DNA of 32,638 nucleotides from Hadesarchaea archaeon. Lineage in GTDB: Archaea; Hadarchaeota; Hadarchaeia; Hadarchaeales; Hadarchaeaceae. Each line of letters begins with the position of its first letter. Positions within the stretch are counted from its first letter, which is position 1. Positions 3,051 to 28,528 of this stretch are shown one piece after another. The notes under the pieces were generated by a model, which saw only the letters and a list, made by a program, of their open reading frames with translations, was not told the DNA's origin and made no database searches. The DNA lies in contig JAUWXQ010000004.1 in NCBI GenBank assembly GCA_030616305.1, forward strand, positions 1 through 32,638, given 5' to 3'. The position numbers and the translations under genes were made by a program.

Positions 3051-3593
3051 TTGGTGGTCGGTGTAAAAACTCAGGTCCAGAATATCGTCTTATCTGTTAC
3101 ATACGAAGATGTCAAGTTCAATCTGGAGCGGCTGGCCAGATCTCTGGATGAGGCGCGCTACGACCCAGAGGTCTTCCCAGGGATTGCTTACAAATCAATG
3201 GATCCCAAGGCCTCCTTTCTTATCTTCTCCTCTGGCAAGATGAACTGCGTCGGCGCGAAGAGCATGAACGATGCAAAACTGGCGATCAAGAAGTTGACGA
3301 GAAAGCTCAAAAAGGTCGGGGTGAAGATAAAATCAGAACCCCAAGTCAAAGTCCAGAACATCGTCGCGTCGTTCGATTTTGGGCGCGAGTTCGACCTAGA
3401 GCGAATCGCACGAACTTTCGACAACACAGAGTACGAGCCTGAGGTGTTCCCTGGTCTCGTGTTCAGATTAGAGGAACCAAAAGTAGTCGTGCTGCTTTTC
3501 GTTTCGGGTAAGGGAGTCTGCGCGGGCGCGAAGAGCATGGCTGATATCAAGAGAGCGGGCGCCAAGATAATAAAACTATTGAAACGACACTGA
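3051..3593 (+). CDS. tbp: TATA-box-binding protein (TBP)
   Basis: The 180-residue product is the archaeal general transcription factor that binds TATA boxes and recruits TFB and RNA polymerase. It shows the two direct repeats of the TBP saddle: repeat 1 at about residues 5-92 (VQNIVLSV, DPEVFPGIAY, FSSGKMNCVGAKS) and repeat 2 at about 98-180 (VQNIVASF, EPEVFPGLVF, FVSGKGVCAGAKS). Length is normal for archaea and there is no acidic tail. The proposed start is TTG 3051 with GAGGCGG upstream; GTG 3054 is the alternative. It is monocistronic, divergent from moaE. Confidence 0.97.
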   Translation: MVVGVKTQVQNIVLSVTYEDVKFNLERLARSLDEARYDPEVFPGIAYKSMDPKASFLIFSSGKMNCVGAKSMNDAKLAIKKLTRKLKKVGVKIKSEPQVKVQNIVASFDFGREFDLERIARTFDNTEYEPEVFPGLVFRLEEPKVVVLLFVSGKGVCAGAKSMADIKRAGAKIIKLLKRH

Positions 3594-3648: not shown

Positions 3649-4782
3649 ATGGCGAAAACCGTTATTGTTCGCTACGGTGAGTTGGCCCTGAAAAGCGAGC
3701 CCGTGCGCAGGCGTTTCGAGTGGCGCCTTATCTCTGCCATAAATTTGGCGCTGAAGGGTTTGGAATACGCAATCGAGAGAGAGCGCGGCAGGATCTTTGT
3801 CTATACAGAATCCCCGACCTCGGTGACCAAACGCCTATCGCGGGTTCCCGGAATAGTATCGGTCAGCTCGGCCACCAAAGTCGAAGCGAACATGAATGAA
3901 ATCCGCAAGTCCGCGTTAAGAGTAGCTAAAAAAGTCCTCGGCCCGGGTAGGAGTTTTGCTGTCCGTACCTCGAGAGTCGGAAAACACCCGTTCTCCAGCA
4001 CGGACGTGAACGTTGAAGTTGGCTCAGCTATTCTATCTAAAGTCAAAGGCGTTCACGTGAATTTGTCCTCTCCTGATCGCAAGATTTTCATAGAAGTGCG
4101 CGGAAAAAACGCCTACGTGTTCACAGAAACTGCGGAGGGAGTTGGGGGGCTCCCTGTGGGTACCCAAGGTAGTGTTGTGGCTCTTTTCTCTGGAAGCCGA
4201 AACGATACCGCTGCTGCATATTTGATGATGAAACGAGGTAGCACCGTTTTTCTGGTGTCCCCGGACCTGCGCACCCATAATAACGGTAAGGCGCAGAGGA
4301 TTGTGACAGCCCCAGCGAAGAAACTCTCCGATTTTGACTCCAAACTCGAATTGCGGGTATTCTCCTTCGGCAAAGTGCTAAACGGATTGAGGACGGTAGC
4401 TATGGGCAGGTATGCCTACTACATTTGTAAACGAAGCGCCCTGCGGGCGGCCGATGCCATAGCCGAGCAGGTGGGGGCGGGAGCCATCGTAGTGAGTGAT
4501 GATGCCAAACAAATTGCCGCCCAGAAACTGGCTAATCTCAGCGTGATAGATGAAGCTTGTAAGCTGCCGGTCCTGAGGCCCCTTGCGGGGATTAGCAGCG
4601 CCGAGATAGAGCGACTTAAATTTAAAGTAAAGCTGCCTCCGCGAGCCAAAGAGGTATGTCCTTTTCCACCCCCCCGAGATGTCATGAGTTTAGAGAAAAT
4701 ACATGAGTTGGAGGAGGGCATGAAAATCGGCGCCCTCGTCGAAGAATCCCTTTCAAAGGTCAGAGCCATCAAACTGAGGTGA
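3649..4782 (+). CDS. ThiI-like protein with degenerate PP-loop
   Basis: The 377-residue product aligns throughout with archaeal tRNA 4-thiouridine synthase ThiI: an N-terminal ferredoxin-like part, a THUMP domain (about 55-165, including FAVRTSRVGKHPFSS) and the adenylation domain with conserved AYLMMKRG and VIDEACKLPVLRPL segments. Key catalytic parts are altered. The ATP-binding PP-loop, normally SGGxDS, reads SGSRND at 181-186; the conserved CxxCKR thiol motif reads YYICKR, keeping only Cys260; and the usual GESLGQVASQ reads DDAKQIAAQ. The frame is intact, so this looks like a repurposed or inactive paralogue rather than a pseudogene. Its stop overlaps the GTG of the aroA-like gene (GTGA). 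Confidence 0.85.
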   Translation: MAKTVIVRYGELALKSEPVRRRFEWRLISAINLALKGLEYAIERERGRIFVYTESPTSVTKRLSRVPGIVSVSSATKVEANMNEIRKSALRVAKKVLGPGRSFAVRTSRVGKHPFSSTDVNVEVGSAILSKVKGVHVNLSSPDRKIFIEVRGKNAYVFTETAEGVGGLPVGTQGSVVALFSGSRNDTAAAYLMMKRGSTVFLVSPDLRTHNNGKAQRIVTAPAKKLSDFDSKLELRVFSFGKVLNGLRTVAMGRYAYYICKRSALRAADAIAEQVGAGAIVVSDDAKQIAAQKLANLSVIDEACKLPVLRPLAGISSAEIERLKFKVKLPPRAKEVCPFPPPRDVMSLEKIHELEEGMKIGALVEESLSKVRAIKLR

Positions 4783-6065
4783 AGTCAGTGAATTTGGTCG
4801 TCCAGCCAGCTACCTCTCTTTCGGGAGAAATCGAGCTACCTCCATCGAAACTTCACACACAGATCGCTTGTGCACTAGCCATACTGGCCGAGGGCAAGAG
4901 CACGATCGAGTTCCCGCTCCGGGTGAAGGACACCAACGTGATGCTGAAGGCTGCGGAGATCATAGGGGCCACGGTGAAGCGGACACAGGAAAGATGGTCC
5001 ATATGGGGGGTCGGGAGGGATTTGAAACCCGCCCAAAATGTCATCGATGCAAAGAACTCTGGCACGGCTCTAAGTCTGCTCACGTCAATCGCGACCCTCG
5101 CACCAACTTCAACCATACTAAACGGAGACATCCAACTGCGCTCGCGCCCCATGCCTACCTTGTTGCGGGCGCTCCGTCGTCTAGGTGCTGATGTCCACTC
5201 CACGAAACCCGATGACAGCCCGCCATTTGTCGTTTTTGGCGGGGGGCTTAACGGGGGAAAAGTACGACTCAACGATGCTGAGGCGCGATATCTACCTGCC
5301 GTGTTTCTGTCTGCCCCCTACGCAAAAAAGAAAGTCGAGTTCTCGATCCACCCGAGCGAAAAAAAGTTCCAACTTGAATCAACACTCGGACTGATGAAAA
5401 TTGCGCGCGCGAAAATAACTGAGCACAGCGGCGGGGTTTCAATTCTAAACCACCCATATCGTGCATTTAATTACAGGGTACGGCGGGAAGTGGTGGGAGC
5501 GGCACCGTTTATCGTGGCGGCCGGCTTGACGAAATCAGAGCTCAAACTTCGTGGATCAAGGGAAATTTCTTTCCGGGATACCGCGTTCCTCCAAGCCCTC
5601 AAATCCTTTGGGCTGAGGGTGCACTTCTCGAGGAAGAGCATCGAGATTGGAGGGCGACATAGACTTCGAGCAGCGCGGTTGGACCTCTCTTGTGTGCCAG
5701 AACTCCTGCCGTTGATGGCGGTACTCGCGTGCGGGGTTCGGGGCAAGACACTCATCCGAAACGCAGAGGAGGCTAGGACGATGAAGTCTGACCGCATCTC
5801 TGCTATCGCACAGGAGCTACGCAGGATGCAGGCAAGGGTACTAGAGCAGAACGACGGGCTGATCGTTCAGGGGGCAGCCAAGCTCAGGGGATGCGAGGTA
5901 GATGGTCACGACGATTACGCGGTTGTGTCTGCCCTAGCCGTGGCTGGCCTAGTGGCGGAGGGAAAAACCGTGATAAAAAACGGCGCCGATGCGCTTGGGA
6001 CATCTTATTCTCGCTTTGTCTCCACTTTCCAAAGCTTGGGGGCCGATGTGAGCTACTCTTCTTAG
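4779..6065 (+). CDS. AroA-like (EPSP synthase family) protein lacking active-site residues
   Basis: The 428-residue product has the full length and two-domain layout of 5-enolpyruvylshikimate-3-phosphate synthase, with landmarks PPSK (21-24), NSGTA (93-97), RSRPMPTLLRALRRLGAD (121-138) and KSDRISA. Almost every substrate-binding or catalytic residue is replaced: PPSKS-R becomes PPSKL-I, the Arg after NSGT is Ser99, the SSQ motif is EAR (168-170), DxSSA is EVVGA (237-241), IPD is VPE (306-308), KESDR is MKSDR (335-339), DHR is DDY (378-380), and the C-terminal Lys is Thr408. Shikimate-pathway activity is therefore unlikely. The gene is co-translated with the ThiI-like gene; the frame is undamaged, so selection for another role is inferred. 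Confidence 0.85.
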   Translation: MKSVNLVVQPATSLSGEIELPPSKLHTQIACALAILAEGKSTIEFPLRVKDTNVMLKAAEIIGATVKRTQERWSIWGVGRDLKPAQNVIDAKNSGTALSLLTSIATLAPTSTILNGDIQLRSRPMPTLLRALRRLGADVHSTKPDDSPPFVVFGGGLNGGKVRLNDAEARYLPAVFLSAPYAKKKVEFSIHPSEKKFQLESTLGLMKIARAKITEHSGGVSILNHPYRAFNYRVRREVVGAAPFIVAAGLTKSELKLRGSREISFRDTAFLQALKSFGLRVHFSRKSIEIGGRHRLRAARLDLSCVPELLPLMAVLACGVRGKTLIRNAEEARTMKSDRISAIAQELRRMQARVLEQNDGLIVQGAAKLRGCEVDGHDDYAVVSALAVAGLVAEGKTVIKNGADALGTSYSRFVSTFQSLGADVSYSS

Positions 6066-7889: not shown

Positions 7890-8842
7890 ACGAGCGAGGG
7901 CAAGTCTTCACGCTAGACATGTTTTTCGCGCTGGCACTGACCGCGCTGATCGTGAGCTACTCTGGGCTAGCTCTAGAGCAGGCGCGCAGGCAGGCTGAAA
8001 GCTACGCACTGCGGTATTCCCTCGAGCGTACCGCAAACGATGCCGCAGATGTGCTCGTGAAGACGGCCGGCGACCCCCAAAACTGGTCGCAAAATTTTGA
8101 AACTCTCGAAACGCTGGGGCTGGCTGAAAACGATTCCGCAGGTAACCCCATCCCAAACAGCCTTTCGGTGGGGAAGTTCGAAAATCTCAGACAGCTGTGC
8201 GCGAGTGCAAACTGGGACGCTAACCCAGACGCGGCACAGGCGGTGAGGGCTCTTTTTGGCGACTCCGAAAACTTTGAGATACGATTGATTGACGAAAACA
8301 CCGGCGAAAACTTGTGGCCCCCCATTTACCCACGGTGGGATGTCAAAGCTACCTCTGGAGTTGAAAACTCTCTCGAAGTGGTGATCGTAAAACGCTTAAT
8401 CTCTACACAGGTGGAGGTCGAAAACAAAATAGAAAACATACGGCACATCAAACAACCCGAGCTACTCCAGATGTACTTCACGGTGGGGACAAATGAACTT
8501 AACACCCGCGACTGGTACATAGTTGTAAAACGGTACCTCGCACCCCTGAGCCAACCTGTAGTTTGGATTACGGTAAATCGCGATATGGATACTGGTAACC
8601 CCGACTGGAAATTCCCTCCTGACGATCCTCCATTTAAAATGTGGTGGCATGGTAACCCTCAAGACCCCCCCAGCAATGACTTGCAGGAGGGCCAGAACTA
8701 CATATGGGTTCGGGTCGCTGGTAGGGGGAAAAGTAAGGGTAATCCGGTTGATGTATCTATCGTTTCGATGCCGTTTTGTTCATCGTCCAGATTTGTGGAG
8801 CTTCCCCCAGTTGCCACGCTCGAGGTGAGGGTATGGAGGTAA
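7886..8842 (+). CDS. Large pilin-like protein, 318 residues
   Basis: The protein begins MNERGQVFTLDMFFALALTALIVSYSG, a class III-like leader (RGQ, acidic residue at +6 instead of +5) followed by one hydrophobic segment. The remaining roughly 285 residues are predicted extracellular and rich in Asn, Trp, Pro and acidic residues, including a WKFPPDDPPFKMWWHGNPQDPP stretch near 243-264. This domain was not recognised; its size and beta-rich, Ig-like flavour fit a minor pilin or tip-proximal subunit. It is located between the small pilins and the LamG proteins in the same operon. Confidence 0.8.
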   Translation: MNERGQVFTLDMFFALALTALIVSYSGLALEQARRQAESYALRYSLERTANDAADVLVKTAGDPQNWSQNFETLETLGLAENDSAGNPIPNSLSVGKFENLRQLCASANWDANPDAAQAVRALFGDSENFEIRLIDENTGENLWPPIYPRWDVKATSGVENSLEVVIVKRLISTQVEVENKIENIRHIKQPELLQMYFTVGTNELNTRDWYIVVKRYLAPLSQPVVWITVNRDMDTGNPDWKFPPDDPPFKMWWHGNPQDPPSNDLQEGQNYIWVRVAGRGKSKGNPVDVSIVSMPFCSSSRFVELPPVATLEVRVWR

Positions 8843-8846
8843 GGCA

Positions 8847-9977
8847 ATGAGATTTCAAAGGGACCAAAGAGGATTCATCTTCAGCCTCGACGCGACGCTG
8901 GCGATGCTAGTTGTACTGATAGTGATGGCGGGGGTAGCGCGTGTGACAGGGGGCGAGCTGGTCTATGGGCAGCACGGCTACTTGCGTTTAGAGCGATACG
9001 CAAATGACACGCTGGAGGTATTACAGCTCACAGGCACGATGGATATCATCATAAGTTTAGTTGAGTACGGAGCGAACGAGAATGCCGAAAATATGGCAAG
9101 GGAGGAGCTCCGAAAGATGCTGCCGGCGGAGATACAGTTCAAGCTCATGATTAGAGATAATAGGCTGACGGTTTATCCGAGCGATGCTGCCGGCTGGGAC
9201 ACGGCGTTTGCAAATGCAGAGGAAATAGCTACAGCAACCCGTATATCGATCTTTGAGGGAGTCGGTGATACCACAGTCGCATTGTGGCACTTCGATGAGG
9301 GTATAGATAATAAAGTTTATGACGAAACTCAAAACAACAACGATGGCACGATTTACGGAAACGTGAGCTGGACCACCGGCAAGTACGGCTATGCGCTGGA
9401 CTTCCCAGGTACCTCCGGCAACTACGTTTCCGTCCCACATTCCGAGAGTTTGGCACCATCGGGGGGTCTGCCTAATCTGAGTGTCGAGGGTTGGGCATAT
9501 GTGGACGGATCTCAGATATCAACTTTCGCTCAAAAGGATTATGTTTGGGTAACACGCGGGTGGTTGATGAAAATTGAGCCTGCGAGTGATCCGAGCATGT
9601 TCAAGTACACAGTACTCTTGTACGCCGGCGGCCAGTATGGAGTTGCCATCAACGATGCTGCTCCACTTAACACGTGGGTGCATCTCGCTTTCACCTACGA
9701 GGGTTCGAGTGGTACTATTAAGGTTTATGTGAACGGGACTGACCGGACGGCCGATGATAGCTGGAACTGGAGGGGCGTCGGCGGTAACGTGGCAACTGGT
9801 ACGGATAATTTGTTCATCGGTTGGGGTGATGCAGGATACTTCAAGGGAAAAATTGACGAGATTCGAATCGAGAACCAGGCTTTGACTGCGGAGGAAATAG
9901 CAACCGATGTAGTGAGTGCTATGCGGGAGTTCGGGCCGGTAACCCTCTACCTTTGGCGAGGGGCATCAGTGGGGTGA
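8847..9977 (+). CDS. Pilin-like protein with LamG/concanavalin-like domain (1)
   Basis: The 376-residue product starts with a pilin-like leader, RDQRGFIFSLDATLAMLVVLIVMAG (Gly near residue 9, acidic residue at +6, one hydrophobic helix). After a linker of about 110 residues, residues 145-355 form a LamG-like jelly-roll (Laminin_G_3 type): VALWHFDEG, DGTIYG, YALDFPG, NYVSVPHSESL, LSVEGWAYV, WVHLAFTYEG, GTIKVYVNG, NLFIGWG, FKGKIDEIRIENQALT. Such domains bind carbohydrates or other surface ligands. A membrane or pilus-anchored adhesin or minor pilin is inferred. The next gene is a paralogue with the same architecture. Confidence 0.88.
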   Translation: MRFQRDQRGFIFSLDATLAMLVVLIVMAGVARVTGGELVYGQHGYLRLERYANDTLEVLQLTGTMDIIISLVEYGANENAENMAREELRKMLPAEIQFKLMIRDNRLTVYPSDAAGWDTAFANAEEIATATRISIFEGVGDTTVALWHFDEGIDNKVYDETQNNNDGTIYGNVSWTTGKYGYALDFPGTSGNYVSVPHSESLAPSGGLPNLSVEGWAYVDGSQISTFAQKDYVWVTRGWLMKIEPASDPSMFKYTVLLYAGGQYGVAINDAAPLNTWVHLAFTYEGSSGTIKVYVNGTDRTADDSWNWRGVGGNVATGTDNLFIGWGDAGYFKGKIDEIRIENQALTAEEIATDVVSAMREFGPVTLYLWRGASVG

Positions 9978-10993
9978 TGACATTGAAATTACGTAACGAT
10001 CAACGTGGGTTTGTTATGAGCGGGATCGCACTCCTGCTCGTGTTGCCGGCGATGTTGTTAGCATCTTCATGCCTTAGGATTATCGAAACAGGGGGGGAAA
10101 CCACCTCACTTCAAGCCCTCTCGGATAAGGTGAGCTATACTGGGCACGACATCGAGCGCATGATCGAATACATGTCAAACAATAGGCTGCCAATCAATGA
10201 CAATACCCTTAATGAACTCGCTGAAAATTACCGGGCCGTTACGGGATTACTTGTAAACCTTAGCTTAAAGCTACCTGAACTCAGCGTCGACGATAACACG
10301 ATTGCGCTGTATCACTTCAACGAGGGGTCAGGAAACACGGCTCATGACAGTACGGGAAGAAACGATGGCACAATCATCGGCGCGACTTGGGTTACTGGAA
10401 AATTTGGTACCTGGCTTCACTTTAGCGATAGTCAATACGTTACGGTCCCTGACTCTCCAAGTTTGAGCCCTTCAGGGGGGCTGGAGGAGCTAACCGTGGA
10501 GTACTGGATCTATCCAATCCAGTTGCCGGTTGAAAGTTTGGGAAATTACCCCAAACCAACGAATAAAGCAGTGGCATCTCCAGAGTCGTGGTTTACCGCG
10601 ATTTGTAGGAACAATGAGGATGACGACTTTGATTATTGCGCGTGGGTGGGATCTGAGGGGGGGGTTTCTTTGGGTTGGCTCAGGAACGCAGCACCGATAG
10701 GTCAGTGGACCCATCTTGCTATGACCTATGATGGGCACGCTCTCACTTGGTATGTCAACGGGGAAAACAGGAAGAGCGTTGTCAATGATTTTGGAAACAT
10801 AGTGAATAACACAGGGAGTCTTTATATTGGGTGTTATTGGGCTAATGGCGAATTCAGGATGGACGAACTCCGAATCGAGAACCGCGCCCTGACCGCCAGC
10901 GAGATTCAAACGGATTATCATAACGACGTGAGTGTCGATGTCAAGGATCCTAGGGATGTGGCACGTTTCTCTGAAAACATCGTGCTGACCTAA
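9977..10993 (+). CDS. Pilin-like protein with LamG/concanavalin-like domain (2)
   Basis: The product (338 residues from ATG 9977) has a leader RNDQRGFVMSGIALLLVLPAMLLASS: RGF and a hydrophobic helix, but without the acidic +5/+6 residue. Residues about 105-315 form a second LamG jelly-roll with IALYHFNEG, DGTIIG, YVTVPDSPSLSPSGG, LTVEYWIYP, WTHLAMTYDG, LTWYVNGE, LYIGCYW and FRMDELRIENRALT, clearly homologous to the preceding gene. ATG 9977 overlaps the previous stop by one base (TGATG) and gives a short leader; GTG/ATG codons further upstream would be less pilin-like. Role inferred: paired surface adhesin or pilus-tip protein. Confidence 0.87.
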   Translation: MTLKLRNDQRGFVMSGIALLLVLPAMLLASSCLRIIETGGETTSLQALSDKVSYTGHDIERMIEYMSNNRLPINDNTLNELAENYRAVTGLLVNLSLKLPELSVDDNTIALYHFNEGSGNTAHDSTGRNDGTIIGATWVTGKFGTWLHFSDSQYVTVPDSPSLSPSGGLEELTVEYWIYPIQLPVESLGNYPKPTNKAVASPESWFTAICRNNEDDDFDYCAWVGSEGGVSLGWLRNAAPIGQWTHLAMTYDGHALTWYVNGENRKSVVNDFGNIVNNTGSLYIGCYWANGEFRMDELRIENRALTASEIQTDYHNDVSVDVKDPRDVARFSENIVLT

Positions 10994-11802: not shown

Positions 11803-12570
11803 CTATCCACCTTGTAGCGCCAACACGAACCGCCAATACAAGTCCCCATACAACACCGCTATGAAGACACCGGCGCCGAGGGCTGGAGCAAAAGGAATCC
11901 CCTTCTTGATCTTTATCTCGTTTTTGAGTTTCCGCTCGCGGACAAGACGTTTGAGCACTCCCACCTGATATCGTGTGAGGCCCGCGGCCCTGCGGGGGTT
12001 CGTGAAGGTGCGGTCCCATTGGGGTTTTCGTCCAAACCTCGCGCTCCACCGCCCGACCTCCCCACCCTTTTCGTAAATCGTCTCCGCCGGGATCATGCCC
12101 TCCTTTAACCCGGTGATTTTTACGTGCTCGTAAAGCGCACCACGACCCCTGATGCGACAGATTACTGCGTACACGAGAAGTATCGGTATGGCTACGAGGA
12201 CGCTGTTGAGCAGAATTGTGAGTGGAAAAAGCGGATAAGTGCTTGAGTACGGTGCTGGAGAATAAGCAGGAACAAAAACCGGGAGCAATGCACCGAGCGC
12301 TGTAAAGAGTTTGACGTCGCCGCCAGCCCAGCCGCCCGTCAGCCACATCGCGTAGCCAATGGCGAAGGCTATCGCGGCCCCCAGCGCTCCAGATGCCACC
12401 ATTAAGAGGTTCCCTCGGAAGAGCCCCAACAAGAAGTAGAAGAGGATGCCCCCCGCGATGAGCGGAAAATTCAACTTGTTCGGGATTATGCGCCACCGGA
12501 GGTCGGTATAAACAGCTATGCACACCGCTCCAAGGGCGATTGCGGCGGGTATGTGCTCGGGTTCGAACAA
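11803..12570 (-). CDS. Archaeal prepilin peptidase (A24 family)
   Basis: The 255-residue integral membrane protein is an aspartic prepilin peptidase of the PibD/EppA/FlaK type, which removes class III leaders at the cytoplasmic face of the membrane. Catalytic aspartates are Asp23 (YTDLRWRIIPN) and Asp85 (AGGDVKL). About six hydrophobic segments are visible, with a cytosolic insert (about 145-225) rich in basic residues and a final pair of helices after KIKKGIPFAPALGAG, typical of archaeal members. The start is TTG 12570, with TTAAACTT about 30 bases upstream suggesting leaderless initiation. Substrates are presumably the pilins encoded on both sides. Confidence 0.9.
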   Translation of the reverse strand: MFEPEHIPAAIALGAVCIAVYTDLRWRIIPNKLNFPLIAGGILFYFLLGLFRGNLLMVASGALGAAIAFAIGYAMWLTGGWAGGDVKLFTALGALLPVFVPAYSPAPYSSTYPLFPLTILLNSVLVAIPILLVYAVICRIRGRGALYEHVKITGLKEGMIPAETIYEKGGEVGRWSARFGRKPQWDRTFTNPRRAAGLTRYQVGVLKRLVRERKLKNEIKIKKGIPFAPALGAGVFIAVLYGDLYWRFVLALQGG

Positions 12571-12622
12571 GCGATCACGCGTATTACTTTGATTCGAAGT
12601 TTAAGAGCTCTTGGCACGCAGC

Positions 12623-12811
12623 TCAGACCAGAAGCATTCCAACCAAGCCAGGGATGATGATGTTGTCCATCACGTTATCGATTTCGCCCCCAACGCTTGA
12701 GCCGAGACCTGTGGAAGCTACATAAATTGATAAAACTATGGCCCCCACGATCACCATCACTGCTGCCAACAGCATCAGATACTCAGTAGCTCCTTGGGAG
12801 CGTCTTTCCAT
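12623..12811 (-). CDS. Small class III pilin, 62 residues
   Basis: The protein MERRSQGATEYLMLLAAVMVIVG... has a class III leader (SQG, then A-T-E-Y with Glu at +3 or, counted from the usual Q+1 register Q-G-A-T-E-Y, the standard QGATEYL signature of archaeal pilins). Nearly all of it is the hydrophobic helix plus a short hydrophobic C-terminus (IIIPGLVGMLLV), so it is shorter than the neighbouring pilins. A TATA-like TTTTTATT about 40 bases upstream (12846-12860) suggests its own promoter. Role inferred: minor pilin or structural pilin of a thin pilus. Confidence 0.82.
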   Translation of the reverse strand: MERRSQGATEYLMLLAAVMVIVGAIVLSIYVASTGLGSSVGGEIDNVMDNIIIPGLVGMLLV

Positions 12812-12870
12812 GTGGGCACCGACCCCATCAACATATGTTGTGGGGAGGAATAAAAACTGCTATTCCACAG

Positions 12871-13245
12871 TCACCGCTTGTCGAAGTACTCGTGCCCACT
12901 TGCTTTGTGCCTCAAACTCACGTACCATGTGCCCGATGTTGTAGCTTTGTTTTCTAGATTAACATTTGGCATAGCTAACGCTACATCCCCAGTCACCCAA
13001 GTGCCGGTGCCTTGGGTCTGGGTTAAGCTGTACTCCCACTCATTTGCCGGAACCGAGCCAGAGTAGACCTCAATTATAATAATATCTCCAGTAGAATCGA
13101 CTGCAGCTTTTGCAGACATGGGTGGAGATGCTGGGGCCCTGTGCAAGTAATAAACAGTTAAAGCAGCGACTATTAGCACCGCCGTCAGTGTCAACAAATA
13201 CTCGGCTGAACCTTGTGAATGTTTGTTTATGTTCCCATCCATCAC
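12871..13245 (-). CDS. Class III pilin (124 residues)
   Basis: The product carries a QGSAEYLLTLTAVLIVAALTVYYL class III pilin helix after a nine-residue basic leader, followed by an exported beta-rich domain of about 85 residues (SGDIIIIEVYSGSV-like strands, WEYSLTQTQGTGTW, TWYVSLRHKASGHEYF). It is a clear paralogue of the next gene: both end in YVSLxHKxxGHxYF. GTG 13245 and ATG 13242 are both possible starts. It follows the hairpin terminator at 13267-13305, so its expression probably depends on read-through or a weak own promoter in the T-rich tract. No cysteines. Confidence 0.85.
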   Translation of the reverse strand: MMDGNINKHSQGSAEYLLTLTAVLIVAALTVYYLHRAPASPPMSAKAAVDSTGDIIIIEVYSGSVPANEWEYSLTQTQGTGTWVTGDVALAMPNVNLENKATTSGTWYVSLRHKASGHEYFDKR

Positions 13246-13266
13246 TGTTTAATGTTATAAAAAAGA

Positions 13267-13305
13267 AAAAATAAAAATTGTGGTCAGCCCCACTCGGCTG
13301 ACCAC
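13267..13305 (-). terminator. Stem-loop plus poly-T terminator behind the main pilin gene
   Basis: GTGGTCAGCC at 13280-13289 pairs perfectly with GGCTGACCAC at 13296-13305 across a six-base loop. On the minus strand the hairpin is followed immediately by a long T-rich tract, about 25 bases with only a few non-T. It lies 19 bases beyond the stop of the pilin at 13324-13719 and before the next pilin gene. It fits an intrinsic terminator or a partial one that also protects the mRNA 3' end. Confidence 0.7.
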
Positions 13306-13323
13306 CGCACTTATCCAGAGCGC

Positions 13324-13719
13324 TTAACTGCCTAATGTTACTACTTGGTCAGAGAAGTATATGTGGCCAGTAGATTTGTGTTTGAGGCTCACGTAGTATG
13401 TGCCAGAACTGACCGTATACGTTGCTCCGCTCTCAGTTGGGTCCAAGACCACATACGGTGCTTTCAATTCACTGTCGCTGTCTACCCAAGAGGAGGAACC
13501 TGTGGAAGTTTGTACCGAATACTGCCACTGCCCTGATGCAATCGATCCGGAGCTGACTTCGAGTCTGATGTGAGAATCGTTCTCAGCGGTAGTCACAGCT
13601 ACTGCAGGATACCCTCCAGTACTCGTCACATAATACACAGCAATCGCAACGATGACTAATACTGCGGCCAACATCAACAGGTACTCGGTAGCGCCTTGAC
13701 CCTTCTTAAACAAATTCAT
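13324..13719 (-). CDS. Class III pilin, probable major subunit
   Basis: The 131-residue product begins MNLFKKGQGATEYLLMLAAVLVIVAIAVYYV: the QGATEYL signature with basic leader, then a helix and an exported domain of about 90 residues rich in Ser and Thr (IRLEVSSGSIASGQWQYSV, TYYVSLKHKSTGHIYF). It has the strongest expression signals of the pilin genes: TATA box CTTTATAACC (13758-13767), GGAGGT about nine bases before ATG 13719, and its own hairpin terminator. High expression as the main filament subunit is inferred. It is divergent from the HTH gene at 13850. Confidence 0.88.
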   Translation of the reverse strand: MNLFKKGQGATEYLLMLAAVLVIVAIAVYYVTSTGGYPAVAVTTAENDSHIRLEVSSGSIASGQWQYSVQTSTGSSSWVDSDSELKAPYVVLDPTESGATYTVSSGTYYVSLKHKSTGHIYFSDQVVTLGS

Positions 13720-13757
13720 TTATTTTCTACCTCCATTAGACCCCTCTCAAATACGGA

Positions 13758-13767
13758 GGTTATAAAG
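13758..13767 (-). promoter_or_regulatory. TATA box of the probable major pilin gene
   Basis: CTTTATAACC on the minus strand lies about 25 bases before a predicted start near 13738. The leader contains GGAGGT with good spacing to ATG 13719. It is the clearest promoter in the pilus locus. Confidence 0.6.
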
Positions 13768-13812
13768 GTGTCCCCGCATCCCTGCGCAAAAGTCGACATT
13801 TTTGTAGGCAGG

Positions 13813-13820
13813 CTTAAATT
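13813..13820 (+). promoter_or_regulatory. TATA box of the HTH gene
   Basis: CTTAAATT lies about 26 bases before 13842, which is only a few bases before the TTG start at 13850, so a leaderless or near-leaderless transcript is predicted. It is divergent from the pilin promoter about 50 bases away. Confidence 0.45.
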
Positions 13821-13849
13821 GTCCCTGTTTGATTGTCTTTGGGTGAAAT

Positions 13850-14404
13850 TTGCAGGTTTTGAGTTGCGTCCGGCACGGGAGAAGTGTGCGGAAAGCCCTT
13901 GGACGAGTTGCTACCGAGCTTAATGAGATGCTTGCAAGCACGCAGGGGTGCATAACAAAGCTGGACGCAAACATCGACTCGGGTATATCGGGAGCAACCG
14001 CACGCATAGTTGCCGTCGTGGACGAAAGTGACCTCAGACCTAAATGTATTCTCTGGGCGAACGAGGCCGGCGGCAACGATAGAACAGCACTTCGCCGCGC
14101 TCAAGAGAAGATAAACGTCCAGCTAGCAAAGTTGCGGGGGGAGATTGCCGGGTTTTACCTAAAGTTTATCACACCTCCGCTGCCCAAGCGCACCTACGCT
14201 ACACTTATCGTGGCGGTGAATGAGGAAATGCCTAAAAAAGTTGGTAAGCTTAGCTTGGAAGAACGTCGAGAGCGCCTAGCAGCGATGCTTCGATTGCTTG
14301 GTAATGATCCGAGGGCTATCAACCTCGCACAGGTGGCCAAAATCTTCGGTGTCTCGCGCGATACTATTTACAAGGATCTACAGGACCTCGGCACCAAGCG
14401 CTAA
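13850..14404 (+). CDS. Predicted HTH regulator within the pilus locus
   Basis: The 184-residue product ends in a helix-turn-helix (about residues 150-182: LAQVAKIFGVSRDTIYKDLQDLG), like the HTH of DeoR/LacI-type or RNA polymerase sigma-like regulators. The N-terminal roughly 120 residues (helix RVATELNEMLASTQGC, then TARIVAVVDESDLRPKCILW) were not recognised and could sense a ligand. TTG 13850 is used because GGGTGA and a TATA box lie just upstream; the next ATG at about 13928 would remove 26 residues. It is divergent from the major pilin gene and convergent with the platform gene, so control of pilus expression is an inference from position. Confidence 0.7.
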   Translation: MQVLSCVRHGRSVRKALGRVATELNEMLASTQGCITKLDANIDSGISGATARIVAVVDESDLRPKCILWANEAGGNDRTALRRAQEKINVQLAKLRGEIAGFYLKFITPPLPKRTYATLIVAVNEEMPKKVGKLSLEERRERLAAMLRLLGNDPRAINLAQVAKIFGVSRDTIYKDLQDLGTKR

Positions 14405-15336
14405 GCGGGTGCCATGCCCCCGATAATCACTTGAGCAATGGAAAAGACGATGAGTGATGCTATCATAAACGGGATCGAGTAACCTATCCCTTTTGACATT
14501 TGGCCGTAGCGGATTACACCCACCGCCAACCCACAGATGAAGGCTTGAATCGCGATGTAAGCCATGGCGATCGTGCCCATCTCTGGTGGCAGCCCACCGC
14601 CCGTTACCGGCCCGGCGCCGATGGTGACCCCACCGACCCCCACGGTGAGGCCGATTATAAATGGGGCCGCGAAGAGCGCCACAGCGAACAGAAACATCAC
14701 CTGCTGTGTCGTTGACGACCGTCGCTCGCGCTGGATTGCATGGATCTCTTTGATATCTCCGGCGACCGCGTCGAGCACGCTGGCGAGGGCAGCACCGCGT
14801 TCGATCCCCTCAACGATCAGACGAAAGGCCCGCTCGTAGAGGGGCGAGCTCGACCTCCGCGCTAGAGCCAGCAGGGCGCTTTCAAGCGTTCTCCCTCGCT
14901 TCACCTCAGTCATGACCTGAGCAAACTCTTTCGAGAGCTCGCCGTATTTAGATTTCACGATGTCGTCGAGTGTCGCGTCTATCCCCACCCCTGCCCTTAG
15001 GGTGCTCGCCATTTGACGGAGAGCATCGGGCAGCACGCGCTCCAGCTCGGCCGCTCTGCGCTGGGCCAAGTACTTGGGTACCCACAGCGTCAACGCCGGA
15101 AATGCGATAACCGCCGCGAGGGGCGCTAACAGGAAGGGGGGGAGCGGAAGCCTGAAAAGCACGCCAATGAAACCCACCACGATACACAAAACTATCGTCG
15201 CAAGCAGGGTTATGCCGACATATTCCTCCGCGGCGAGCGCAATCTTGGTGGACTCAAGCCTCCGGTCAAGGTTATGCAGAAACTTTTCCGGGAACACGCG
15301 CTTAGCGAAAGCTGCCATACGAGAAACCATGCTCAC
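14401..15336 (-). CDS. TadC/GspF-like pilus platform membrane protein (2)
   Basis: The 311-residue product is a type II secretion F-domain protein of the archaeal pilus (TadC, FlaJ, PilC) group. It has two hydrophobic helices at about 40-95, a cytoplasmic F domain (about 105-200: LPDALRQMASTLRAGVGIDATL, ALLALARRSSSPLYERAF, VEGIERGAALASVLDAVA) and a C-terminal membrane part with three helices, including a Gly-rich loop. It forms the inner-membrane platform with the ATPase. The GTG start overlaps the stop of the upstream platform gene (GTGA). Its stop overlaps by four bases, tail to tail, the 3' end of the HTH gene. Confidence 0.9.
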   Translation of the reverse strand: MSMVSRMAAFAKRVFPEKFLHNLDRRLESTKIALAAEEYVGITLLATIVLCIVVGFIGVLFRLPLPPFLLAPLAAVIAFPALTLWVPKYLAQRRAAELERVLPDALRQMASTLRAGVGIDATLDDIVKSKYGELSKEFAQVMTEVKRGRTLESALLALARRSSSPLYERAFRLIVEGIERGAALASVLDAVAGDIKEIHAIQRERRSSTTQQVMFLFAVALFAAPFIIGLTVGVGGVTIGAGPVTGGGLPPEMGTIAMAYIAIQAFICGLAVGVIRYGQMSKGIGYSIPFMIASLIVFSIAQVIIGGMAPA

Positions 15337-16436
15337 AACCTCGGCTCGAACCTCTTTATCATCATCACGAAGTACATCAGCATGAACGGGATGAGGATGA
15401 GGTAAAGGACAGCTGCAGTCTGCGATGTAATTCCCCCGCCCCCTCTCCCAGCCGATATCATTATCACCACCATGAGCATCGCCGGGATGACAGCGGAGGC
15501 GAACATGTAAATCATCGTGAGAAGGTTGAGCGACTGGGTGTAGTCTCGGAGTTTCATGCGCATCTCGAAAGCCGTTTCGTCGGCCAGGCTGCTCAGCGTG
15601 CGGGAGAGGTCACCCCCTGTCCGCAGAGTGCGCTGGATTTGGCGAGTAGCGCGGCGGAGGGGCTCGGAGTCCACCCGTTCGTTCATTGACGTTAAGGCCT
15701 CCTCCGTGCTCATGCCCGCATGCATATCTCTGATCACTCTCCCGAACTCCTCCGACATGGTGCCATAATCCGCTTGGCTGACCGAGGTCATCGTTTCGGG
15801 GAGGCCTATCCCTGAGGAAAGCTGCGTGGCCATGTGCCGCAAGGCATATGGAATTAGCTGATTTACCTCACCAGCGCGCGCCTTGGCCCTGCGCTTTGGC
15901 TGTGTCCTAATAAACATGAGTGAAAACAAGAACGCGACAATACCCCCCACCGGGACAAAGAGAAGCGGCATTCGCAACAAAACCATCACTACTACAGCAA
16001 ATACGGCCACGATGATGCTGACGCCTATCATCATTGCAGCGTAGCGTTCTGGGGTGGTTTTCAAATTGGCCTTGTACAGATCCTTATCCATGCCCTTGAA
16101 GAACCTTGCCAAACGTGCAGCTGGCCGCTTAAGCGGACCGTAGAATATTCCCGCGAGGCGCTCGGAAAGGGGCCTCCTAAGCTCGGCCCTTTCCTCAAAC
16201 TTTTTTTCCTCAAGTAACTTTCTCTCTTCCTTTAACTCCTTCTCGCGAACCGCCTCGAGGCGCTTTATTTCCTGTAATCTCTGCGAAACCTCATCGCCTT
16301 TTTTGGGTGGCGGTCTCGAGATTTTGATAGACGCTCCCACCCGCTGTGCTGCTTCGCCAGTTTTAACCACGCCTCCGCCAACTCTGGAAAAAAATCGTTT
16401 CAGAGTGCCCCGTTTTCGAGCTCTCGTTTTAGGCAT
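15333..16436 (-). CDS. TadC/GspF-like pilus platform membrane protein (1)
   Basis: The 367-residue protein has a basic N-terminus, a charged predicted coiled coil (about residues 48-85: QEIKRLEAVREKELKEERK), paired membrane helices (about 133-170), a GspF/TadC F domain (about 190-300: LIPYALRHMATQLSSGIGLPETM, TEEALTSMNERVDSEPLRRATRQI, TGGDLSRTLSSLADETAFEM) and three C-terminal helices. It works with the ATPase encoded seven bases upstream and the second platform protein downstream. Two consecutive F-domain proteins are usual in archaeal Tad-like systems. The N-terminal FFSRVGGGVVKTG motif is shared with the membrane protein at 11040. Confidence 0.9.
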   Translation of the reverse strand: MPKTRARKRGTLKRFFSRVGGGVVKTGEAAQRVGASIKISRPPPKKGDEVSQRLQEIKRLEAVREKELKEERKLLEEKKFEERAELRRPLSERLAGIFYGPLKRPAARLARFFKGMDKDLYKANLKTTPERYAAMMIGVSIIVAVFAVVVMVLLRMPLLFVPVGGIVAFLFSLMFIRTQPKRRAKARAGEVNQLIPYALRHMATQLSSGIGLPETMTSVSQADYGTMSEEFGRVIRDMHAGMSTEEALTSMNERVDSEPLRRATRQIQRTLRTGGDLSRTLSSLADETAFEMRMKLRDYTQSLNLLTMIYMFASAVIPAMLMVVIMISAGRGGGGITSQTAAVLYLILIPFMLMYFVMMIKRFEPRL

Positions 16437-16443
16437 GAAATCA

Positions 16444-18144
16444 CTAATGATGTTTCGTGCCCTTATCCGCGCGCACTCGTTTCATGGTTGCCTCTGGGTC
16501 ACGGTAGTATTCTTGAATTACCCGCCCGACTTCGAAGATATTTCTGACTTCACGTTTCCTCATCCAATCGAGCACCGCCGCGCGCTTCTCAAGCTCTATC
16601 TCAATGTCGGTGCCGCGCAACCCGCTGAATTCAGCTATCTTGCGTTTAATCCTGCTCGGCACTCCCGTAGGCTCGACCACATCGGTGCGGGGGTTCCACT
16701 TGAAGATGCGGCTGAGCTGGGGCTTGCCACCCTCCAAACCCGTTACCTCTGCCACCTCCGTTACCCTCCGGATTTGTCCCTTTTGGCGGTGATAGATGCG
16801 CTGCTGCATCACGATCACATCGAGCGCCGGTATCATCATGTCCGGGACAGACATGGGGGCCTCTGTCAAACGGGTGATGGTCTCAGCCGCGCTGTTTGAG
16901 TGAACGGTGCCCGCGCATCCCTCATGACCTGTATTCATGGCCGTGAACATCGTGCGAGCTTCTGGACCTCGAACTTCACCAACGATCAAACGGTCGGGCC
17001 TCATCCTAAGGGCGTTCTTGACTAAGTCATCCATGGTGATCTCTCCGCGTCCCTCCACGTTTGGCGGTCTCGTCTCAAGTCTAATCCAGTGCTTGTGGGG
17101 GAGCTGGAGTTCGGCCGTGTCCTCGATCGAAATGATACGCTCCCGCGCGGGGACAAAGGTCGTAGCTGCGTTGAGGGAGGTCGTTTTTCCGCAGCCGGTC
17201 CCCCCTGCGAAAAGTATGTTGGCGGGCTTGATGCCGAGACCGTCCACGATCAACCACAGGAAGGCCGCGACATCCGTAGGTAGGGTGTCGTAGTTTAGGA
17301 TATCGATTATCGTGAGCGGGTCCTTTCGGAATTTTCGTATGGAGATCGTCGGCCCTTCCAGGGAGACCGGAGGGATGGTAGCGTTCACCCTGCTCCCATC
17401 TGGCAACCGCGCGTCTAGCAGAGGCGTCTGCTGGTCGATTCGCCTGCCCACCACACGGGCCATTTTGTCTATGAGGTACTTGATCGAATCCTCGCTCTCA
17501 AATACCACGTTTGTGGAGCACATTCCGTGATTTCGATGGTAGACGTAAACGGGCTTGCCCACAGCCGTCACCATTATGTCCTCGAGATTGTCGTCAGCTA
17601 TCATGGGATCGAGCGGGCCGAACCCCAACATGTCCCGCACCGCCGACTCACCGAGCTCCTTTATGCGCCCAGGGGGGAGGCGGGTGCCCTTGCTCTCCTT
17701 TTCGATTATCTTGAGAATCTCGTGCATGAAAACGCGTTTACGTTCGGCTAGGTCCGGGATTCGGTCCGGGTCGATTTTTATCTCCTCTGCGGCCTTTTCC
17801 TTCGTTGCGGTGAGGAGTTTTTGCTCCTCTTCGGTCAGCTTGGACATTTTCAGCTTGTAAAACGGGATGACCTCGCCCTCGACCGACAGGATCTCAACTT
17901 GGCCGTATTTGTCCAGCACCTTTCCAGTTGTGGGGATTATCTCCACCTTTGGACCGGGGGGCAACGCCATCTCGGGCGTCGGCTTGGGTGCCTCCTTGGT
18001 TGGTATTGGTATCTCAGGGAGAACCTTTGAGATGATTTCGGATAAATCTACTCCACCACCTCTAGACCTACGCCCGGCCGGTTTGGGGGCCCTAACAGCC
18101 CTTTTTCTCGATCGAACGGCTGATTTTTTCCGTTTCTTTGACAC
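16444..18144 (-). CDS. Type II/IV secretion system ATPase (TadA/VirB11-like)
   Basis: The 566-residue product is the pilus assembly motor. The ATPase domain shows Walker A GGTGCGKT (314-321), an Asp box (SIEDTAELQLPH, 339-350), Walker B LIVGEVRG (386-393) and a His box (TGHEGCAGTVHSNSA, 406-419). Upstream is the archaeal N-terminal domain (about 120-270: FGPLDPMIADDNLEDIMV, RIDQQTPLLDARLPDGSRVN). The first 30 residues are strongly basic and precede a Pro-rich linker (about 45-66), an extension longer than in minimal VirB11 proteins. Start GTG 18144. It heads an operon with two platform proteins; it powers polymerisation of the pilins in the adjacent operons. Confidence 0.95.
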   Translation of the reverse strand: MSKKRKKSAVRSRKRAVRAPKPAGRRSRGGGVDLSEIISKVLPEIPIPTKEAPKPTPEMALPPGPKVEIIPTTGKVLDKYGQVEILSVEGEVIPFYKLKMSKLTEEEQKLLTATKEKAAEEIKIDPDRIPDLAERKRVFMHEILKIIEKESKGTRLPPGRIKELGESAVRDMLGFGPLDPMIADDNLEDIMVTAVGKPVYVYHRNHGMCSTNVVFESEDSIKYLIDKMARVVGRRIDQQTPLLDARLPDGSRVNATIPPVSLEGPTISIRKFRKDPLTIIDILNYDTLPTDVAAFLWLIVDGLGIKPANILFAGGTGCGKTTSLNAATTFVPARERIISIEDTAELQLPHKHWIRLETRPPNVEGRGEITMDDLVKNALRMRPDRLIVGEVRGPEARTMFTAMNTGHEGCAGTVHSNSAAETITRLTEAPMSVPDMMIPALDVIVMQQRIYHRQKGQIRRVTEVAEVTGLEGGKPQLSRIFKWNPRTDVVEPTGVPSRIKRKIAEFSGLRGTDIEIELEKRAAVLDWMRKREVRNIFEVGRVIQEYYRDPEATMKRVRADKGTKHH

Positions 18145-22784: not shown

Positions 22785-22952
22785 ATGCGGAAGTCCCTAG
22801 AAGTGCTGGTGAAGGAATCGGGCTGTGCGTTAGTCCTGGGTATAGACGGAGAGGGTGAGGTAGTGGAAACTATACTGACCTCACGCTTCGAGCGGAATTA
22901 CAAGTGGAAGCGATATACGGGCAGCGACCGACTTTCGGAGGGTAAAAAATGA
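22785..22952 (+). CDS. Small protein at the head of the histidine operon
   Basis: This 55-residue frame begins MRKSLEVLVKESGCALVLGIDGEGEV and ends in a charged KWKRYTGSDRLSEGKK tail. GGGTGGGA lies about six bases before ATG 22785, and its stop overlaps the hisC start (ATGA), so it is translated and coupled to hisC. It contains no histidine codon, so it is not a classical attenuator leader peptide. I do not recognise a family; the first 35 residues could form an alpha-beta fold. A role in histidine synthesis or its regulation is only suggested by position. Confidence 0.6.
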   Translation: MRKSLEVLVKESGCALVLGIDGEGEVVETILTSRFERNYKWKRYTGSDRLSEGKK

Positions 22953-24019
22953 TTTCGAAACGCGTTAGGGAGATGCTTCGGTCAAGGGCTTCGTACCCGC
23001 TCGCCCGTAAGTACGATGTAAGGGGAGAGGTCATCAACCTGGCCTCTAACGAAAGTCCCTACGGCCCATCGCCACGCGTGCTTCAAGCACTCAGGCGTGA
23101 GATGGACAGAGTTGGCTTGTATCCTGACCCACGTGCCACCAAGCTCAAAACAGCGATAGCCGATTACGTGGGCGTGAGGACCGAGTGTATCACAATCGGG
23201 AACGGTTCCGACGAGCTCATGGACCTCTCCTGCAAGGCTTTTTTGGACCCAAGAGATCGGGCGCTCATCCCCTTACCGACGTTTGCGATGTACGAGCTGG
23301 CTTGCAGAAGTAACGGGGGGGTACCGAGATTTTTCAAGCTGCCGAATTTCGAGTGGCGCACGGGAGATCTCAAACGCGCCTTGGGTGGAGCGAAGTTGGC
23401 GTTTTTGGGGAGGCCTAACAACCCCACAGGTAACGGCGTAAGCCTAGAGGGGCTGCGGTATCTCCTCAAAAGCGGGAAGCTCATCATCGTGGACGAGGCA
23501 TATGTGGAGTTCGCTGGATATTCTGTCGCGAAGCTGGCACCGAAGTTCAAGAATCTGATCGTGCTTAGAACTTTTTCAAAGGCTTTCGGGCTCGCGGGTC
23601 TAAGAGTTGGCTACGCTGTTGGAAACCCCAAGTTGATCGAAGTGCTTGAGAGCATCCGCGCACCGTTCAACGTCAACCGCATAGCCCAAGTTGCGGCGGT
23701 TGTAGCTCTGAGCGACAGAGGCTATCTGCGCAAAGTCGTGGGCGCAACGCGGAAGAACCGCACGTACTTGCGCCGAGAACTCTTGAAGCTGGGCCTGCGC
23801 GTGTTGCCATCGGACGCGAATTTCTTAATGGTAAACGTGACGCCTCTCAAGACAAATGCACCAAAACTATGTGATTATCTAGCGCGAAAGGGGATCTTAA
23901 TCCGTGAGTTATCGAACTTCAGGGGCGCTGGGCCACGTTGGGTTAGAATCAGCGTCGGTAAACCCGAGCAAAACGAGAGGCTTGTAAACGCGATAAAACA
24001 ATTCAAAGGAGGTGTTTAA
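22949..24019 (+). CDS. hisC: Histidinol-phosphate aminotransferase
   Basis: The 356-residue PLP enzyme (class II aminotransferase fold) converts imidazole acetol phosphate and glutamate to histidinol phosphate. Visible motifs: NESP (34-37), GNGSDEL (84-90), PNNPTG (156-161), DEAY (182-185) and SKAFGLAGLRVGYAVG with the PLP lysine at 211. Length matches the family. It starts inside the stop codon of the small ORF and its last codons contain the ribosome site (GGAGGTG) for hisG. First recognised enzyme gene of the operon. Confidence 0.95.
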   Translation: MISKRVREMLRSRASYPLARKYDVRGEVINLASNESPYGPSPRVLQALRREMDRVGLYPDPRATKLKTAIADYVGVRTECITIGNGSDELMDLSCKAFLDPRDRALIPLPTFAMYELACRSNGGVPRFFKLPNFEWRTGDLKRALGGAKLAFLGRPNNPTGNGVSLEGLRYLLKSGKLIIVDEAYVEFAGYSVAKLAPKFKNLIVLRTFSKAFGLAGLRVGYAVGNPKLIEVLESIRAPFNVNRIAQVAAVVALSDRGYLRKVVGATRKNRTYLRRELLKLGLRVLPSDANFLMVNVTPLKTNAPKLCDYLARKGILIRELSNFRGAGPRWVRISVGKPEQNERLVNAIKQFKGGV

Positions 24020-24023
24020 AGTG

Positions 24024-24884
24024 ATGGTCAAAATTGCCGTGCCGAAAGGACACCTAGAGGAAACGACCGTCAAGTTGCTCCAAGACGCGGGGATTGGAGT
24101 AATCGGCAGAGACGGACGCCAGCTCTTCGCCAGAACGAACGACCCGGAGATAGAACTGGTATTCGTGCGGGCGGAAGACATCCCAGATTTCGTCGCCAGA
24201 GGATCGACTGACTTGGGCATCACTGGCTACGACCTGATGCGCGAAAGTGGCGATGTAGATGTTGCAGAATTGCTGGACCTAAGTTATGGTTACACTCGTC
24301 TGGTGGTGGCAGCAAGCGAGAAATCCGGCATCAAATCAGTACGCGACATAAAACCGGGCGCGAGGGTGGCGACTGAATTTCCAACGAACACCAAACGGTA
24401 TTTCGCAGAAAAGGGAATCAAGATCGAACTCGTCGACATCACGGGAGCCGCTGAGATATCGCCGCTGATAGGATTGGCGGACTTGATCGTTGATGTAACG
24501 AGCACAGGCACAACTCTGCGCGCACACGGACTGAAGATAATCGACACGATCTTGGAAAGCACATCGAGGTTGATAGCCAACCGCCGAAGTTTGAAGGAGA
24601 AGAAGGCCAAGATCGACGACATAGTTACGGCCATCAACAGCGTGGTCAAGGCGAGAGGAAAGAAGTTGGTATTGATGAACGTGCCCGAAGCAAAGCTTGA
24701 AAAAATCAAGCGGGTGATGCCGGGGATGGCAGGACCAACAGTCTCCCGTGTCGAAGGTGCAAAAGGGATGCTAGCGGTTCAAGCGGTGGTCGATGAAGCC
24801 GAGGTCTACAAAGTCGTGAAACGCGCCAAGCAGGCGGGGGCCAAGGACATCCTCGTCATACCAATCGAAAGAGTGCTACCGTGA
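24024..24884 (+). CDS. hisG: ATP phosphoribosyltransferase, long form
   Basis: The 286-residue enzyme catalyses the first, feedback-controlled step, joining ATP and PRPP to phosphoribosyl-ATP. The PRPP loop is DLIVDVTSTGTTLRAHGL (about 154-171), and the N-terminus is KIAVPKGHL. The C-terminal roughly 75 residues (GMAGPTVSRVEGA onwards) form the ACT-like regulatory domain of the long form, which works as a hexamer without HisZ and is inhibited by histidine. GGAGGTG at 24008-24014 supports ATG 24024 or GTG 24021. The stop overlaps an upstream GTG candidate for hisA. Confidence 0.95.
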   Translation: MVKIAVPKGHLEETTVKLLQDAGIGVIGRDGRQLFARTNDPEIELVFVRAEDIPDFVARGSTDLGITGYDLMRESGDVDVAELLDLSYGYTRLVVAASEKSGIKSVRDIKPGARVATEFPTNTKRYFAEKGIKIELVDITGAAEISPLIGLADLIVDVTSTGTTLRAHGLKIIDTILESTSRLIANRRSLKEKKAKIDDIVTAINSVVKARGKKLVLMNVPEAKLEKIKRVMPGMAGPTVSRVEGAKGMLAVQAVVDEAEVYKVVKRAKQAGAKDILVIPIERVLP

Positions 24885-24904
24885 AAATTCAGAGGGGTGT
24901 AGGC

Positions 24905-25633
24905 GTGTTGGTTGTTCCGAGCGTGGATATCATGCGGGGACGTTGCGTCCAGCTGGTGGGAGGAAAGCCAGATACCGAGCGGGTTTACGGTGACCCAGTT
25001 GAGCTAGCACAACGATGGGTGGCTGAAGGAGCAAAGTACCTACATGTGATTGACCTCGATGCCGCGATGGGCACGGGGGACAACTTCCAGAAGGTCGCTG
25101 ATGTCATATCGAACGTGAGGGTCGGCGTAGAGGTAGGGGGTGGAATCCGAACGCTTGAACGGGCGAACGAACTCTTGGGGATAGGGGCTGACAGGGTAAT
25201 CTTAGGTACGGCCGCGGTCAAGAACCCTAATCTCGTCGCGAAACTCGTCGAACTGGCAGGCGGTGCACGGGTCATGGTCGCGCTTGACTCTCGCGCAGGT
25301 AAGGTAACCATAGAGGGCTGGCGCTCTCAGACCGAAAAAACAGCACTCCAGTTGGCGAAAGAGTTTGAAAGGATGGGTGTGGGCTCATTGTTGTATACGA
25401 GCGTCAACGTTGAGGGGAGCATGCGTGGCGTGGCTGCACGTGAAATCCGAGAGCTCGTGAGCGCCGTCAAGATACCGGTGTTCGCTTCCGGAGGAGTGGG
25501 AACACTAGAAGACGTGCGCATAGCGCGGGAGGCGGGGGCAGCGGGGCTGGTTCTCGGGATGGCGTTATACGAGCGCAAGTTCACGTTAAGAGAGGCAATG
25601 GAGGTGGCGAGAGATGCGGGTCGGAAAGGTTGA
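24905..25633 (+). CDS. hisA: ProFAR isomerase HisA
   Basis: The 242-residue (beta/alpha)8 barrel isomerises ProFAR to PRFAR. The catalytic aspartates are Asp8 (MLVVPSVDIMRG) and Asp128 (VALDSRAG), with phosphate loops GGGIRT (78-83) and FASGGVGTLEDV. GTG 24905 is preferred because it gives the family N-terminus and has AGAGGGGTG six bases upstream; the frame also opens at GTG 24881, overlapping the hisG stop, which would add eight residues. The 3' end overlaps hisB by 20 bases. Confidence 0.94.
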   Translation: MLVVPSVDIMRGRCVQLVGGKPDTERVYGDPVELAQRWVAEGAKYLHVIDLDAAMGTGDNFQKVADVISNVRVGVEVGGGIRTLERANELLGIGADRVILGTAAVKNPNLVAKLVELAGGARVMVALDSRAGKVTIEGWRSQTEKTALQLAKEFERMGVGSLLYTSVNVEGSMRGVAAREIRELVSAVKIPVFASGGVGTLEDVRIAREAGAAGLVLGMALYERKFTLREAMEVARDAGRKG

Positions 25634-28524: not shown

Positions 28525-28528
28525 TTGG

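Follow-up and report, generated by a model that had tools for sequence, protein, structure and literature searches.

The window analysed here, a stretch of 32,638 nucleotides from a Hadesarchaea archaeon, encodes a degenerate full-length homologue of ThiI/TtuI (W), and the same genome encodes a stand-alone PP-loop protein (S). Together, these proteins probably form a split heteromeric 4-thiouridine-8 (s4U8) synthetase in which W is the catalytically dead, tRNA-presenting subunit; that W and S associate, and that the pair produces s4U8, are both inferred. In such an enzyme, the ferredoxin-like and THUMP domains of W would hold the tRNA at its acceptor stem and at the CCA end, while the dead PP-loop domain of W would act as a dimerisation platform that pairs with S. 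S would bind ATP, adenylate U8, and supply it with sulfur through an Fe-S cluster coordinated by the three cysteines of S. This role for the cluster is suggested because the ThiI of M. maripaludis needs all three cysteines, the loss of any one of which abolishes activity (PMC5372739). Since homodimeric ThiI grips tRNA with one subunit and modifies it with the other, a split pair would retain one complete tRNA site. No paper describing a split ThiI pair was found in the open-access literature searched; s4U itself is present in the tRNA of P. furiosus (PMC7668247).

W retains the RNA-binding modules of ThiI and has lost the signatures of its active site. Both the ThiI_fer domain (65.1 bits against a Pfam cut-off of 25; E, 8e-18) and the THUMP domain (62.1 bits against 20.6; E, 7e-17) are intact, and they point to the RNA-binding adaptor role proposed in the first-pass annotation. 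The ThiI PP-loop domain is likewise recognised above its Pfam cut-off (residues 171-323; E, 8e-31), and the ThiI equivalog model TIGR00342 scores 243.6 bits, under its cut-off of 264.5. The first-pass annotation had quoted the three altered motifs exactly, and its proposal that W may not thiolate tRNA holds up: the changes in the PP-loop and the DI-loop (dimer-interface loop) all fall on positions that contact ATP in the T. maritima enzyme, and U8 adenylation and thiolation by W alone would not be expected. W lacks the SGGxDS loop of a ThiI/TtuI enzyme, and also the CxxC plus third cysteine of the archaeal Fe-S type, the first cysteine of the CxxC being missing; cysteine remains at two of the three active-site positions (C260 and C337). 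In the AlphaFold model of W, a single-chain prediction (pLDDT, 86.9; TM, 0.87 to T. maritima ThiI 4kr7), the whole ThiI fold is kept, the dead PP-loop domain included. The closest solved structures are those of B. anthracis ThiI, T. maritima ThiI, and P. horikoshii PH1313.

Table. Coordinates of W, its motifs, neighbouring and other genes of the window, and the proposed partner S. Tm, T. maritima numbering.
Feature	Position	Strand	Remarks
W, degenerate full-length ThiI/TtuI homologue	3649..4782	+	377 aa, ATG start; putative tRNA-binding subunit of the proposed split synthetase
W N-terminal ferredoxin-like domain, residues 5-73	3661..3867	+	Pfam PF22025; includes invariant loop YGELALKSEPVRRR, which in T. 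maritima extends to the active site of the partner subunit
W THUMP domain, residues 79-159	3883..4125	+	Pfam PF02926; predicted to bind the tRNA 3'-CCA end
W linker GVGGLPVGTQG, residues 164-174	4138..4170	+	Gly167 corresponds to Tm G168
W degenerate PP-loop SGSRND, residues 181-186	4189..4206	+	Canonical SGGxDS
W degenerate CxxC, YYIC ahead of KR, residues 257-260	4417..4428	+
W degenerate DI-loop DDAKQIAAQ, residues 284-292	4498..4524	+	Canonical GE-LGQVASQ
W residual Cys337	4657..4659	+	Aligns with third/catalytic Cys (Tm C344); present in only 5/15 proteins of the class
TATA-binding protein gene (TBP)	3051..3593	+	Directly upstream of W; Pfam PF00352; marks the conserved locus
EPSP synthase gene (AroA)	4779..6065	+	4-nt overlap with the W stop codon
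Prepilin peptidase	11803-12570	-
T2SSF-type membrane protein	14401-15336	-
T2SSE ATPase	16444-18144	-
S, stand-alone PP-loop protein	G000:C50, about 8713-9382	-	Outside the window; same genome as W

Elsewhere in the window, the prepilin peptidase, T2SSF-type, and T2SSE genes belong to an archaeal type IV pilus locus (11803-18144), and many short open reading frames with pilin-like N termini lie between about 6200 and 13700. One protein (8847-9977) combines a pilin-like hydrophobic N terminus with a concanavalin A-like (Laminin_G_3) domain, and the next open reading frame (9953-10993) is similar by eye. A run of open reading frames at 22949-28927 resembles histidine biosynthesis genes, by eye only.

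S is the one other clear ThiI-domain protein in the genome of W, and it carries SGGIDS, CLLC, GESLGQ, and the third cysteine. Its single-chain model (pLDDT, 91.5) gave a TM of 0.86 to the PP-loop domain of T. maritima ThiI 4kr6. A second, full-length canonical thiI, for which the first-pass annotation had proposed a search, was not found in this genome (about 90% complete); the search returned S instead. The further suggestion that thiolation had been lost or replaced by another reaction fits poorly with a stand-alone catalytic PP-loop domain retaining all motifs in the same genome, and a better reading is that thiolation is kept and divided between two subunits. S has the same stand-alone ThiI PP-loop architecture as the NCBIfam family NF006222/PRK08349, named 'hypothetical protein'; however, S of the window genome scores 154.9 bits, under the curated cut-off of 251, and falls in a separate clade of the PP-domain tree from the Thermococcales S proteins, which pass the cut-off (255-348 bits). 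The genes for W and S are unlinked in the window genome.

The residues kept by W-type and S proteins divide along the lines of the ThiI dimer. In T. maritima ThiI, dimerisation relies mainly on the PP-loop domains; one subunit grips the RNA with its ferredoxin-like and THUMP domains and offers U8 to the PP-loop domain of its partner. Lys17 is directed at the partner's active site, and in the crystal Gly168 in the linker of one subunit makes a bond with Asp319 in the other (PMC4041423). In T. maritima numbering, the residues that act on the partner or on RNA (K17, R21, R46, G126, and G168) were kept in 37/37 degenerate proteins. Their counterparts in W include K15 and R20, both invariant also in all 15 proteins of the class, the invariant Gly125 of the THUMP domain, and Gly167. 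In contrast, the ATP-site residues G184, D186, Q291, and Q295 and the partner-contacting D319 (Asp144 in S) were kept in 47/47 S proteins, while the degenerate proteins mostly or wholly lacked them (D319 remained in 2/15 of the class and 0/11 of the Thermococcales). These residue sets were picked from the published structure description, and the degenerate class was defined by loss of the PP-loop and CxxC, so that loss at PP-loop positions is built into the comparison; what carries information is the loss of Q291, Q295, and D319 and the retention of the N-terminal and linker residues. The THUMP contacts Y119, S123, and R141 are unconserved even among intact archaeal proteins and are therefore uninformative on W. 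Taken with the crystal contact between G168 and D319, the retention pattern indicates that only the half running from the W linker to Asp319 of S has been kept, which is what would be expected if the linker of W meets S while S offers W no linker.

The two genes also tend to occur together. Among 27 genomes surveyed from the window's class, 15 encoded a degenerate full-length ThiI and 5 an intact one; S was present in 11 of the former, including 10/10 of those at least 85% complete, and in 2 of the latter (G003 and G026). Three genomes of the class carried S without a full-length copy (G007, G016, and G018), and G016 and G018 (92% complete) count against the pairing. When named genomes beyond the class were scanned, degenerate copies of full-length ThiI turned up in Thermococcus, in several lineages of DPANN, and in a Thermoplasmata, a Methanocellales, and a Methanomicrobia bin. 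S accompanied it in 11/11 Thermococcales genomes with a degenerate copy and in 10/13 other archaeal genomes, the three lacking it being two genomes with sizes of 0.6-0.7 Mb and one chimeric bin; among intact-only genomes outside the Thermococcales and the window's class, S occurred in 0/16. A bin labelled Mollicutes (G034), with archaeal-type degenerate and bacterial-type intact ThiI (loci L101 and L159), is probably chimeric. The association of degenerate ThiI with S gave a Fisher P value of 2.7e-8 with relatedness ignored; the tree-aware paired test, with 4 independent pairs on starred branches, had no power (average in the same direction, 1.1; opposite, 0.0). In the genus of P. horikoshii, 8/9 genomes encoded a degenerate copy plus S, six of them without a detected intact ThiI. 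One genome (G082) contains an exact fragment of PH1313 and is therefore P. horikoshii itself; no intact ThiI was detected there, the genome having degenerate PH1313 and S. In three Thermococcus genomes, the TGA of the degenerate gene overlaps the GTG start of S by 4 nt (GTGA).

The same survey shows that S does not require a dead partner, since most Thermococcales carry it with an intact copy and not a degenerate one. Wherever a Thermococcales contig carried both S and an intact full-length copy (44/44 genomes), S lay at most 3.5 kb downstream on the same strand. In these species, as in G003 and G026, the role of S may thus be independent of any dead partner. In the window genome, S lies beside tRNA-Cys and Thi4, with HcyBio and SepCysS within 6 kb (L213, G000:C50, 2773-9507). 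Across the class, its neighbours include tRNA-Cys and Thi4 (11/15 loci each), SepCysS (6/15), and SufBD (4-5/15; L213, L214, L215, L217, and L226), a neighbourhood that could mean another sulfur role. On this evidence, S might act alone on another substrate, such as one connected with its Thi4, SepCysS, and Fe-S neighbours, with W an unrelated tRNA-binding chaperone or regulator. We consider this unlikely. The neighbouring genes differ by lineage, yet the pairing of W-type proteins with S recurs with independently derived S, and neither the 4-nt gene overlap nor the way in which the retained residues complement each other across the dimer interface would be expected of proteins acting apart.

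The gene order TBP-ThiI-AroA is common to the degenerate copies and the intact copy of G014, so W is the degenerate orthologue of the latter; a paralogous relationship between the degenerate and intact copies was rejected for G014, where the intact copy occupies the same TBP-aroA locus. In the window, the start of AroA overlaps the stop codon of W as GTGA (4779-4782), and translation of the two may be coupled in this lineage. The motif loss described by the first-pass annotation recurs in kind in 15 genomes of the class, which makes a sequencing error unlikely, while five others encode full-length proteins with SGGIDS, CxLCKR, and GE-LGQ. Between close relatives inside the degenerate group, dN/dS was 0.15-0.34 in both halves of the protein, showing that W is maintained under purifying selection. 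This selection on the PP-loop half, together with the modelled retention of its fold, would suit a W that keeps its own catalysis through the altered PP-loop and C260 and C337, as weak thiolation or a different RNA modification; among its relatives, CLLC persists in some and SGG in one. That W is itself catalytic is nevertheless very improbable. The PP-loop, DI-loop, and cysteine positions vary among its relatives (SGSRND, SGNRND, SGSLNS, SGKKRD, and DGSGRD), the third cysteine is present in a minority of the class, the C-terminal half is further reduced in Thermococcales and DPANN, and M. maripaludis ThiI does not tolerate the loss of even one of its three cysteines.

Alternatively, W could dimerise with an undetected intact ThiI rather than with S, a reading left some room by the incompleteness of the window genome. 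Moreover, an intact copy, a degenerate copy or degenerate-like fragment, and S do occur together in G003 and three Thermococcales. In G003, the intact copy is on contig C38; of a second ThiI-like gene, the first 24-25 residues lie at the end of contig C15 (L219, 1-76), and over this stretch the identity to W is 92%. However, the other degenerate-type genomes of the class yielded no intact copy, and neither did five genomes of Thermococcales that are each one near-complete contig (G063, G064, G070, G082, and G111); a hidden intact partner is highly improbable. Finally, that W is a decaying, functionless relic of ThiI, as loss of the active-site motifs might imply, is scarcely credible given an open frame in 15 genomes, the purifying selection described above, 62-66% identity to the proteins of G002 and G019, and invariant RNA-side residues.

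The split into W-type and S proteins appears to have arisen more than once. The starred branches require at least 4 changes of the degenerate state on the N-terminal tree (by a quick method) and at least 4 for S on the PP-domain tree; a single origin of either is therefore not favoured. S of G028, G029, and G098 groups with the PP domains of Thermococcales full-length proteins, apart from the other Thermococcales S. In a Thermococcus paralvinellae bin (L085, 1905-3053), a ThiI with S adjacent keeps SGGIDS and has a damaged CxxC and interface loop, a possible intermediate of the split. We lean, with some reserve, towards a history in which the homodimeric s4U8 synthetase of archaea was repeatedly (at least 4 times) divided into two proteins that obligately form one enzyme, a free-standing copy of the catalytic domain arising first and the full-length parent then losing its active site and surviving as a tRNA-presenting pseudoenzyme.

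The proposed W-S enzyme can be set against known systems. W shares with ThiI/TtuI (PDB 2c5s, 4kr6/4kr7; TIGR00342; archaeal [4Fe-4S] TtuI type) the NFLD-THUMP-PP-loop domain order, the fold (TM, 0.82-0.87), the RNA-side residues, and the interdomain linker, and S keeps the three-cysteine pattern of the archaeal Fe-S type. In contrast to ThiI/TtuI, W is without the PP-loop, CxxC, and DI-loop motifs and below the TIGR00342 cut-off, and catalysis is proposed to reside in a separate protein. PH1313 (PDB 1vbk) also combines NFLD-THUMP with a dead PP-loop domain, the W model matching it with a TM of 0.84 by target length, and both genomes have the stand-alone gene S; however, the C-terminal half is truncated in PH1313, and the two degenerations are independent by tree. 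The structure of this 'ThiI-like' protein was solved in 2005, and its activity was still unconfirmed according to a 2023 review (PMC9957541). A precedent is Ctu1/Ctu2 (Ncs6/Ncs2), the eukaryotic U34 thiolase, whose paralogous PP-loop subunits derive from a homodimeric ancestor and one of which is without the cluster cysteines (PMC10067955). W and S likewise comprise one dead and one live paralogous PP-loop subunit, although the tRNA position and the PP-loop subclass differ, and the live subunit, S, is also without RNA-binding domains.

If the split synthetase is real, it would provide a function for PH1313-type proteins and for the 'hypothetical protein' family PRK08349, and annotation would be corrected, since genomes of this kind would make s4U8 even though a complete ThiI is not detected in them. 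It would also be a clear case in which a pseudoenzyme and an enzyme repeatedly evolved as a pair from a homodimer whose subunits act in trans, testable in the genetically tractable Thermococcales. Repeated splitting, if true, would explain both PH1313 and the degenerate ThiI of DPANN archaea.
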